Assembly (NCBI RefSeq): GCF_000935355.1
Contig: NZ_JXZC01000002.1
Span: 310,001 to 374,000 of the forward strand
DNA length: 64,000 bases
DNA from: Rossellomorea aquimaris
GTDB lineage: Bacteria > Bacillota > Bacilli > Bacillales > Bacillaceae_B
Direction of reading: 5' to 3'
Made by a program: the position numbers and the translations under genes. The notes below the pieces were generated by a model that saw nothing but the letters and a program-made list of their open reading frames with translations, was not told the origin of the DNA and made no database searches. Below, in pieces: positions 40,230 to 42,152 of the stretch; positions within the stretch are counted from its first letter, which is position 1, and each line of letters starts with the position of its first letter.

Positions 40230-40274
40230 TTAACGAAGAAGTTGTAAAACCCCTTGTGGTTGTTGGTTCGCTTG
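40230..40274 (-). other. hag: Flagellin C-terminal exon fragment beyond the second group I intron
   Basis: Reading frame [14 protein letters not shown]-stop (40274-40230), the near-universal flagellin C-terminus, with no start codon or ribosome binding site of its own. It directly follows the 3' end of group I intron 2. It can only be expressed after splicing. If the intron ends with the G at 40275, splicing joins it in frame to QSNQMP of exon 2. If it ends at the G at 40280, the frame is lost. Confidence 0.8.
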
Positions 40275-40627
40275 CTTTGCGACTATGTCTTTCGATCATA
40301 GAATAGACTATATCTTCACCCTTATTTTTTAAGGGGCTGGGCACTTCGAACAGCTTTTGCTGCCCTACGAGATTCATAATCATAGCTTTGCCTTAGACCG
40401 TGTTCTCTAGTCGTTGAACCTTCTCCAGAGTTTCCTCACAGGAGCTTGGCTGCTGATTATCCATTGGTGCATCTCTATCATTTTCCGACCATTCCGCCTA
40501 CTGTTTCCAGTTTCGTTGTGGTTGATAAAGCTTTAGGAAGTTCCAGCAATTCACCCAGTAATACTCCAGCTCGTTACCAAACTGGACGCCCTCTAATCAA
40601 CTATCTCAGAAGTTGTAAAACTCCTTG
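40275..40627 (-). ncRNA. Group I intron 2 (IA-like) in the flagellin gene
   Basis: A self-splicing-type RNA of about 350 nt. Visible parts in order: exon AUGCCU with internal guide GGGCGU (P1, with a U-G pair at the cut); P2 CCAGUUU-GGUAAC-GAGCUGG; GGGTGAATTGCTGG; AATCAGCAGCCAAGCTCC; GGTTCAACGACTAGA (P7); AAGGGTGAAGATATAGTC (P7'); and a P9 hairpin closed by a GAAA tetraloop. The 3' end is the G at 40275 or 40280. There is no homing endonuclease frame. Its first 27 nt encode QGVLQLLR and a stop, so unspliced RNA still gives a normal flagellin end. Confidence 0.88.
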
Positions 40628-40718
40628 AGGCATTTGATTGGATTGAGCTAACATTGCTTGCGCTGCTTGAGAAAGAATAGAATTCTTTGTTTGGTTCATC
40701 ATTTCTTTCGCCATCGTG
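40601..40718 (-). CDS. hag: Flagellin exon 2: conserved C-terminal D0 segment
   Basis: The frame [18 protein letters not shown]...[18 protein letters not shown] (stop at 40603-40601) is the conserved flagellin C-terminal helix missing from the upstream frame. It lacks its own ribosome binding site. With intron 1 cut after GACGT (41074) and after TTCG (40719), the product reads RIRDV-TMAKEMM, which matches the expected flagellin length exactly at this joint. The last 27 bases double as the 5' end of intron 2. D0 is needed for filament assembly and FliS binding, so expression through splicing is strongly implied. Confidence 0.85.
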
Positions 40719-41073
40719 CGAACATTTACTTTCATAAATGACCAGACTATATCTTCACCCTTTAGCAGGGGTTGGGCACTTCGGATCCACAATGCTGATG
40801 ACCACTGTTTCACCTACGGATTTCATCACCATAGCTTGCGCCTTAGATGGTCTATCCTAGTCGTTGAACCTTCTCCACTCTTTCAAGACAGGAGCTTGGC
40901 TGCTGATTGCCCAATCTCTTCTTTTGTTAAAGCCATCACGCTTGTCGTTTCCAACTACGTTGTGGCAAGAAGAGCTCTAAGGGGTTTCCAGCAATTCACC
41001 CAATTATGATCTCTAGCCGTTACCAGCCAGGACGACTGTGCTTGTCGCTGTTTAGGCAGCTAAAGCATAATCT
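40719..41073 (-). ncRNA. Group I intron 1 (IA-like) interrupting hag
   Basis: A roughly 355-nt group I intron after the codons RIRDV. Core elements in order: P2 CUGGCU-GGUAAC-GGCUAG; TTGGGTGAATTGCTGGAAAC; AATCAGCAGCCAAGCTCC; GGTTCAACGACTAG pairing with GAAGATATAGTC (P7); and P9 CATTTATGAAAGTAAATG with a GAAA tetraloop followed by TTCG. P1 is less clear: exon GACG pairs with CGUC just before P2, with a bulge at the U-G site. Boundaries are therefore inferred from the flagellin alignment. There is no endonuclease. Without splicing, translation ends 8 codons after the joint (DYALAA-stop). Confidence 0.9.
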
Positions 41074-42152
41074 ACGTCACGGATGCGAGATTCCGCTGCA
41101 GTTAGGTTTTCAGAAGAAGTATTTAAGTTGTTAATAGTGTGTTCTAATCGGTTTTGTTGAGCACCAAGTGAACTTCTCTGTGCAGAAACTTTTTGAATCG
41201 CATTGTTTACAGTCTCAATAGCTGTTGCTGCACCGAACTTACTTGAAACGTCGAGATCTTTTACGCCAAGTGCTGAAGCCTTCATATCTTTAATTGAAAT
41301 AAAAGAGGTTTGTCCTGCATTTGCTCCAATTTGAGTCATAATTGAACCCGCTAAATCACTACTAGCATCTTCTTGCTTCCCAAATACTAAAGTTACACTT
41401 TCTCCGACCTTCATTTTCCCATCAAAGCTATCAGCTGCTAAAGTAGTACCTCCAGTAACTACAGCACCAGCTATAGTAATTGTATCATCTGCGGATACAG
41501 AAACATCAGTAGTAACCTTACCATCTGGACCATATACTTTGTAATCCGCTGCATCAAATCCAGTTGTTGCTGCATCCCCAGTTCTAACTATCATGTATGC
41601 CCCATCTTTTAATGCTTTTGTAGCATCAGTTGATGCAGTTGTATTTAATCCATCAATTGCAGTTTTTGTAATAGTGACTCCTGAATTGTTATTAACTGCT
41701 GCACTACCAGCAATTCGCTCAGTAACACCTTTGGCTGAACCGTCTAATAACTTTTTAGTATTAAACTCAGTTGTGTTACCAATACGATCTACTTCTGAAA
41801 TTAATTGTTTTACTTCCGCTTGAAGTTCTTTTCTATCTGCATCTGTATTTGTATCATTGGAAGACTGAACAGCTAATTCTCTCATACGTTGAAGAATATC
41901 ATGGGTTTCGTTTAAAGCACCCTCAGCAGTTTGAATTAAAGAAATTGAATCTTGAGCGTTACGAGACGCTTGTTCTAATCCACGAACTTGACCACGCATT
42001 TTTTCTGAGATTGCAAGACCTGCTGCATCATCTCCAGCTTTGTTAATACGAAGTCCAGAAGATAGTTTCTCCATTGATTTAGCTTGTGCTCCAGAAGCAC
42101 TATTCAACTGACGATAAGTATTCAAAGCCGCAATATTATGATTAATTCTCAT
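41074..42152 (-). CDS. hag: Flagellin exon 1
   Basis: The filament protein: [17 protein letters not shown]...[27 protein letters not shown] (N-terminal D0/D1), a variable central region (about 150-300) and the start of the C-terminal D1 helix ([34 protein letters not shown]). The open frame runs on 8 codons into intron 1 and stops at 41052, giving 366 residues that lack the whole D0 C-terminus. Continuation at 40718 restores it. A SigD promoter is upstream and csrA-fliW follow rightwards. Group I introns have been reported in flagellin genes of thermophilic Bacillaceae, which supports reading this as an intron-bearing gene, not a pseudogene. Confidence 0.93.

Follow-up and report, generated by a model that had tools for sequence, protein, structure and literature searches.

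The hag flagellin gene of Rossellomorea aquimaris contains two group I introns, A and B, each of which begins with a short coding stretch that continues the hag reading frame and closes it with a stop codon. Our preferred reading, to which we give odds of about three in four, is that both introns are splicing ribozymes and that their translated 5′ ends have evolved to set the fate of the unspliced product, by adding a degron in the case of intron A and a replacement C-terminus in the case of intron B. The anatomy of the gene and its three reading frames are seen in the sequence and the coding selection on the intron ends is shown by comparison, and we infer splicing in this organism, proteolysis of one product and filament assembly by both 398-amino acid forms. 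Positions below refer to the window, which is the whole 64,000-nucleotide stretch of DNA that was analysed.

Anatomy of the hag gene and its two introns

The span 40230-42152, as delimited in a preliminary description of this region, runs exactly from the start codon of hag to its last stop codon. It is divided as follows, with a slash marking a splice site.

42152-40230, minus strand: hag, start codon through last stop
41070..42152, minus strand: hag exon 1, which ends RIRDVD, last codon GAT
40715..41069, minus strand: group I intron A, 355 nt, between GAT and ATG
41052..41069, minus strand: translated 5′ end of intron A, TAT GCT TTA GCT GCC TAA, encoding YALAA and a stop
41034..41042, minus strand: 3′ strand of intron A P1, AGCACAGTC, which pairs with GAT/TATGCT across the splice site
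40646..40714, minus strand: hag exon 2, 69 nt
40275..40645, minus strand: group I intron B, 371 nt, RF00028 match
40601..40645, minus strand: coding 5′ end of intron B, which mimics the native C-terminus
40588..40600, minus strand: 3′ strand of intron B P1, TTGATTAGA-GGGC, which pairs with TCCAATCAA and GCT/C
40230..40274, minus strand: hag exon 3, frame joined across both introns

The preliminary description had proposed two tandem group I introns in hag and had recommended a covariance-model search, which bears the proposal out. Using cmscan, intron A gives an RF00028 (Intron_gpI) match at 41044-40723 on the minus strand (86.1 bits, E = 1.5e-20) and intron B one at 40620-40283 on the same strand (76.9 bits, E = 8.7e-18), both far above the gathering score of 50. 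These two are the only RF00028 matches in the genome. At 355 and 371 nt, neither intron has room for an endonuclease, as had been noted.

The exact intron ends were set by combining the U/G boundary rule with P1 pairing and intron-less relatives. According to the accessible portion of PMC11915505, the 5′ exon ends in a U that pairs with a G in P1, and the last intron base is a G; the ends of intron A (GAU/..ACG) and intron B (GCU/..AAG) both fit. Among 129 introns, pairs 4, 5 and 6 of intron A P1 covary, and pair 2 is a non-standard A-C in 127. The P1 of intron B was judged by eye against three relatives (L089, L092 and L095) and by a fold; GCT/CAA is kept in relatives and, again by eye, the P1 arm changes along with its partner. 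A start of intron B after ATGCCT or ACAACTT, suggested by pairing with GGGCGT within the window alone, was rejected because some relatives lack the required U after ATGCC (L090 has CCA and L093 has CCG). Excision of both introns restores the intron-less frame, with a difference of one residue from the intron-less flagellin L088 in the C-terminal stretch compared. The ribozymes are of a known kind, and the new part is the translated intron end.

Three products can be read from this gene. Unspliced RNA yields a protein of 366 amino acids that ends in YALAA, spans only positions 2-53 of the 86 of Flagellin_C and lacks the terminal helix, as previously described. When intron A is removed and intron B retained, the product has 398 amino acids and a C-terminus supplied by the 5′ end of intron B. 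When both are removed, the product again has 398 amino acids with another C-terminus, which ends like that of L088. Exon 2 and the first 45 nt of intron B together encode the whole missing helix, including their own stop codon. A complete flagellin therefore needs splicing of intron A only, and the mimic frame at the start of intron B, which supplies a C-terminus of its own, rules out intron B as a second required splice. The earlier view that the helix lies in two pieces that both await splicing, and that the filament depends on it, holds for intron A, whose retention leaves the helix missing, and fails for intron B.

The gene is the only flagellin gene of the genome, where the one other Flagellin_N match lies in a 301-amino acid ORF (43664-44569) that we take to be flgL. 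A second hag that could rescue the cell, a source of filament protein that the preliminary description had raised, is absent from the genome. Open frames for csrA and fliW adjoin hag, and further frames nearby are presumably fliD and fliS.

Several other elements were observed in the window. A c-di-GMP-I riboswitch lies at 22190-22280 (minus strand, 80.9 bits), and the only ORF of at least 120 amino acids between 20500 and 22400 is found on the same strand at 20662-21045. A SAM riboswitch is located at 14043-14160 (minus strand, 93.5 bits). The minus-strand stretch 35495-36280 holds an IS200-like Y1 transposase of 187 amino acids (PF01797) and, immediately upstream of it at 36146-36241, perfect inverted repeats that surround TGTACCAGGTACA; this combination resembles a REP-associated transposase with its repeats.

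The Ala-Ala ending of intron A

In all 129 distinct A introns whose 5′ end could be read, the hag frame enters the intron for five or six codons and then meets a stop. The commonest ending is YALAA (76 of 129), and the others include YAEAA, YTEAA, YDLAA, YDLAAA, YVLAA, YAKAA, YDSAA, HTEAA, YALTAA, YVLSAA and more. Ala-Ala is the terminal dipeptide in 124 of these introns, with the exceptions ending in YALVA, YASVA, YDLAVA, YALTA and YALAS. A tree of 126 distinct intron A cores was built from sequences without the P1 region and without bootstrap, and changes were counted by the Fitch method. Within this set, 122 introns end in Ala-Ala and four end otherwise, the third-last residue is Leu in 90, and Glu precedes Ala-Ala in 17.

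On this tree, the last sense codon has undergone 1, 0 and 50 changes at its positions 1, 2 and 3, and all four Ala codons are found there. The corresponding counts are 1, 2 and 10 for the second-last codon, 0, 0 and 14 for the stop codon, and 18, 16 and 9 for the third-last codon. Expressed as amino acid changes, the last two residues account for 1 and 3, compared to 20 and 20 for the two before them. The lower P1 helix, which spans the splice site, covaries through codon 2 (pairs 4 to 6); at positions where the protein allows another residue, the RNA therefore allows it too.

The two arms of P1 also differ in their lengths. Across the 129 introns, the coding 5′ arm is always 18 or 21 nt long, with 8 length changes on the tree, whereas the non-coding 3′ arm takes 12 different lengths between 10 and 24 nt, covers all three residues modulo 3 and has changed length 40 times. 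Because the coding arm is delimited by an in-frame stop, its length is necessarily a multiple of three, whereas the conservation of its ending does not follow from the definition. No frame shift, which would have altered the ending, was seen within the coding arm. Comparative data of this kind show purifying selection on the residues encoded by the intron 5′ ends.

The tmRNA of the host encodes the tag GKTNNNLALAA. The intron A tail in the window has the features of an SsrA-type degron, namely a C-terminal Ala-Ala, a Leu before it and a match to the end of the host tag, and both clpX and tmRNA genes are present in the genome. YALAA is also the end of the Escherichia coli tag. ARAGORN was run on 28 further intron-bearing hosts, picked for their varied intron tails, and named a tag in 21 of them and none in 7. 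All 21 tags end in Ala-Ala, which with the window's genome makes 22 of the 22 hosts read. The tag ends in the further hosts are ALAA, AVAA, AFAA, AYAA, SLAAA and VLAAA, so the final Ala-Ala alone is common to all. A tight match between the residue before Ala-Ala and the host tag was not seen among the hosts read; those labelled Planococcus or Planomicrobium, for example, have the tag end AFAA compared to intron ends AEAA or TEAA. In E. coli, Glu before Ala-Ala may weaken ClpX binding, and the degron signal may be weaker in the 17 of 126 introns with this residue.

According to PMC8012679, ClpXP, ClpAP and Lon all recognise SsrA tags, and ClpXP also recognises the C-terminal Ala tails of bacterial ribosome quality control. 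The product of unspliced intron A is like those of SsrA/tmRNA tagging and RqcH alanine tailing in that the protein ends in Ala-Ala. However, the intron A tail is written in the intron of a single mRNA and followed by a normal stop codon, and needs neither a stalled ribosome nor a tagging RNA.

Weak RF00028 matches of about 275 nt at two further loci (L295 from genome G009 and L296 from genome G018), and others like them, begin at GGGTTCGAT, which is T-loop-like. These are probably introns in tmRNA genes of the type described in the portion of PMC11915505 that was accessible. In some hosts, group I introns may thus interrupt the tagging RNA as well as a gene with a tag-like tail.

Intron B, its relatives and other group I introns

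Among 67 distinct B introns of the Bacillales type, 65 begin with a 15-codon frame (stop included) that ends in LQLLR, LQLLQ, LQLLK or LQLLG. These 65 were selected for a codon test by length only, and the last 8 sense codons of the mimic show 35, 9 and 89 changes at codon positions 1, 2 and 3 on a tree without bootstrap. Counted back from the stop codon, residues L-2, L-3, Q-4 and L-5 have undergone no residue change, though their codons change, while V-6 and Q-8 have each changed once, G-7 four times and R-1 seven times. Position -10, which is Met in 43 of the 65 introns, has changed 19 times. The 3′ exon was located for 62 of the 67 B introns, and mimic and true last exon share their final residue in 58 of 60 readable cases. 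Two introns without a mimic were left out of this count: L095, in which the mimic frame has been lost, and L125 (Oceanobacillus luteolus), which ends in QFEQIAA.

Site B is also occupied in flagellin genes of the same phylum outside the order, whose hosts we assume to be clostridial from the type of flagellin. Of 18 such introns, 16 end in Ala-Ala and two, both from genome G134, mimic the native end; among ORFs of the viral loci surveyed below, only 30 of 3445 end in Ala-Ala. The 16 tails consist of MLE or MLD, two or three further residues (GI, GM, EI, EM, GL, RM, VL, AP or VRW) and Ala-Ala, giving MLEGIAA, MLEGMAA, MLEEIAA, MLEEMAA, MLEGLAA, MLERMAA, MLDEMAA, MLEVLAA, MLEAPAA and MLEVRWAA. 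The Ala-Ala tail at this site is a second, independent case. One other locus from outside the order (L310) is not a flagellin gene by its frames.

The preliminary description had called the two-intron arrangement unusual, which is too strong, as sites A and B are widely occupied in Bacillales. A tally of 36 genomes of the genus, including that of the window, was based on the positions of RF00028 matches near hag and yielded 7 genomes with both introns, 12 with A only, 6 with B only and 11 with neither, the last being an upper bound given that the filters lose some weak matches. The intron pair is therefore not rare, because 7 of the 36 genomes carry it. RF00028 matches occur in 36 of 398 genomes sampled from the phylum, and several lie in flagellin genes of genomes outside the order.

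Named genomes were also scanned with a pattern that joins the 3′ end of intron A to the first part of exon 2 and is silent on the 5′ end; this found at least 117 site A stretches in Halobacillus, Oceanobacillus, Planococcus, Neobacillus, Anoxybacillus, Sporosarcina and others. Anoxybacillus loci with a site A intron and YALAA are among the matches listed. Eight of the site A loci fell outside the first capture of 5′ ends: L130, L161, L169, L211 and L219 begin inside intron A or one base before it, although L130 still reads YALAA; L163 is degenerate; L177 is masked by N; and L210, which ends in YALTAA, is part of the later sets. The degenerate copy, from Ornithinibacillus halophilus, retains the intron A core and exon 2 of a flagellin gene, and the preceding sequence is no flagellin end. 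Three loci (L172, L117 and L128) have a bacillar or Planococcus-like intron A under the seemingly ill-fitting names Pseudomonas sp. ISL-84, Paenibacillus bovis DE0126 and Bacillus subtilis DE0224, and the genomes behind them are possibly misnamed.

Group I introns of other genes provide a control. From 24 distinct introns of a gene that we presume, from its sequence, to be of ribonucleotide-reductase type, 10 stop within one codon or before and have no such tail. Of the other 14, 12 end in Ala preceded by S, V, A, T or L, and two of these end in Ala-Ala. One locus that reads through the site without an intron (L097) was dropped from this set, and introns with long inserts such as L454 were left unread. 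The strict Ala-Ala ending is therefore characteristic of flagellin, and introns elsewhere show a weaker tendency towards it. That the tail might be an RNA motif common to the whole intron class was rejected, since 10 of the 24 lack it. In L454 and L455 (genomes G022 and G025), about 1 kb separates the two blocks in which the intron of this gene occurs; L454 has an exon frame that ends in GGSRRGKAA, and the 308-amino acid ORF with zinc-finger-like cysteines between the blocks is perhaps a homing endonuclease.

A crude survey of viral loci produced 125 P7 hits, of which 38 had no P4-like motif; with contig-end hits skipped, the remainder comprised 79 distinct introns, 46 of them with an open frame. 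Four of these 46 unspliced frames end in Ala-Ala, compared to a background of 30 among 3445 ORFs in viral loci (nominal P = 7e-4), a proportion above background at that nominal value and far from a rule. The endings AA, VA, AV and AI together account for 11 of the 46, this wider set having been picked after the endings were seen.

Competing explanations and consequences of translated intron ends

Under our preferred reading, intron A places a short frame, YALAA and its stop, within the P1 hairpin, such that a ribosome on unspliced hag RNA would stop ahead of the ribozyme core. The flagellin released in this way would lack the polymerising terminal helix and end in Ala-Ala like the host SsrA tag, and ClpXP-type proteases would presumably remove it. 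Intron B, which lies near the end of the gene, carries its own version of the final 14 residues and a stop codon, and its retention would cost nothing, as both forms have 398 amino acids. In B. subtilis, cytosolic flagellin titrates FliW, which frees CsrA and shuts down hag. A truncated flagellin that does not assemble could titrate FliW in the cytosol without limit, which provides a plausible need for a degron. Several observations speak against the preferred reading: four of the 126 A introns lack Ala-Ala, the preceding residue departs from the host tag and is Glu in 17, many introns of the ribonucleotide-reductase-type gene have no such tail, and in the viral survey only 4 of 46 frames end in Ala-Ala.

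We also consider it likely, although we hold to it less firmly, that bacterial group I introns in protein genes more widely encode quality control of their own unspliced product, either through an in-frame P1 degron that has arisen more than once or through replacement of the C-terminus near the end of a gene. Such introns would amount to a one-gene, RNA-encoded counterpart of SsrA tagging. The cases that would belong here are flagellin site A, site B outside Bacillales, the Oceanobacillus site B intron, the weaker endings in Ala of ribonucleotide-reductase-type introns and perhaps some phage introns.

Two other explanations concern the tail of intron A. The sequence GCNGCNUAR might simply be an element of the P1 hairpin or its loop, with Ala-Ala as a by-product of RNA structure. 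The A introns all have a similar core, and in 82 of the 129 the C-N-G-C has an exact complement within 12 nt past the stop, which gives a small stem with a NUAA cap. Conservation of GCNGC may partly reflect this RNA pairing, a point that counts against our preferred reading. However, Ala-Ala is retained in 40 of the 42 tree-set introns without the full upper stem, the last two codons change almost solely at third positions with the final N taking all four bases, and the forms that are one codon longer (YDLAAA, YALAAA, YALTAA and YVLSAA) retain the same ending. Furthermore, in the site B introns outside the order, which have a different insertion phase, the last Ala codon appears, from reading the sequences, in the hairpin loop. 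We regard structure alone as quite unlikely to be the answer. Equally unlikely is the possibility that the two Ala codons play no part in protein decay and instead tune release or pausing at termination so that the ribozyme core folds. Many bacterial group I introns do have an in-frame stop close to their 5′ end, whose presumed role is to aid folding by stalling ribosomes (PMC3984707), but such tuning leaves unexplained why conservation acts on the residue and not on a particular codon, given that each of the four Ala codons occurs in last position, and why the ending matches the end of the hosts' tag.

The intron B mimic could instead be an unused scar, brought in with a piece of the 3′ end of another flagellin gene in the manner of homing elements. 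A duplicated 3′ end is known from the yeast WHO elements in FBA1, according to the excerpted text of PMC7282813, and the agreement between the last residues of mimic and true exon in 58 of 60 cases could come from gene conversion. However, origin and use are separate matters, and a scar would keep neither its length in 65 of 67 introns nor its residues over many synonymous changes, while L095 reveals that the mimic can be lost. This explanation has a small chance of being correct. It is highly improbable that the introns fail to splice in this organism and that hag is broken or regulated off. Flagellin intron splicing in thermophilic bacilli does depend on temperature, as cited in the consulted part of PMC4853749, but here both cores score far above the Rfam cut-off, the intron ends obey the U and G rules and the spliced end is like that of intron-less L088. 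The gene is also the only flagellin, located beside csrA and fliW frames and fliD- and fliS-like frames.

Flagellin group I introns of thermophilic bacilli are known (Hayakawa and Ishizuka 2009, 2012, as cited in the available parts of PMC3984707 and PMC4853749). They are group IA2 introns whose temperature-dependent splicing promotes motility, as the 2012 study is summarised in the latter source. Like the introns described here, those of Geobacillus stearothermophilus and other thermophilic bacilli are group I introns in a bacillar flagellin gene, whereas an intron-encoded peptide, an SsrA-like end and a second intron with a replacement C-terminus go unmentioned in the accessible citing text. 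No intron-encoded degron or replacement C-terminus of this kind was found in the literature searched, which included few subscription journals.

The c-di-GMP riboswitch and group I ribozyme of C. difficile, and the IStrons, are similar in having more than one RNA outcome that is relevant to expression (PMC3984707 and PMC4853749, in the sections available). In hag, by contrast, the outcome would be set by the coding content of the unspliced RNA, and the only c-di-GMP aptamer of the window lies 18 kb away. The WHO elements of yeast FBA1, as portrayed in the accessible part of PMC7282813, are likewise selfish and bring along a duplicate of their target's 3′ end, so that the gene stays whole. Unlike these elements, the hag introns have no room for an endonuclease, and their copy, which would be translated only if splicing fails, forms the 5′ end of a ribozyme.

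The prevailing view is that a bacterial protein gene can tolerate an intron only when splicing is efficient, as coupled translation otherwise yields truncated proteins. The introns described here appear to mark the failed product for destruction (A) or to render failure harmless (B). If this is true, it explains the persistence of self-splicing introns in a single-copy, highly expressed gene. There would then be a natural set of degrons across many genera, and simple reporters would allow a direct measurement of the cost of translating unspliced RNA.
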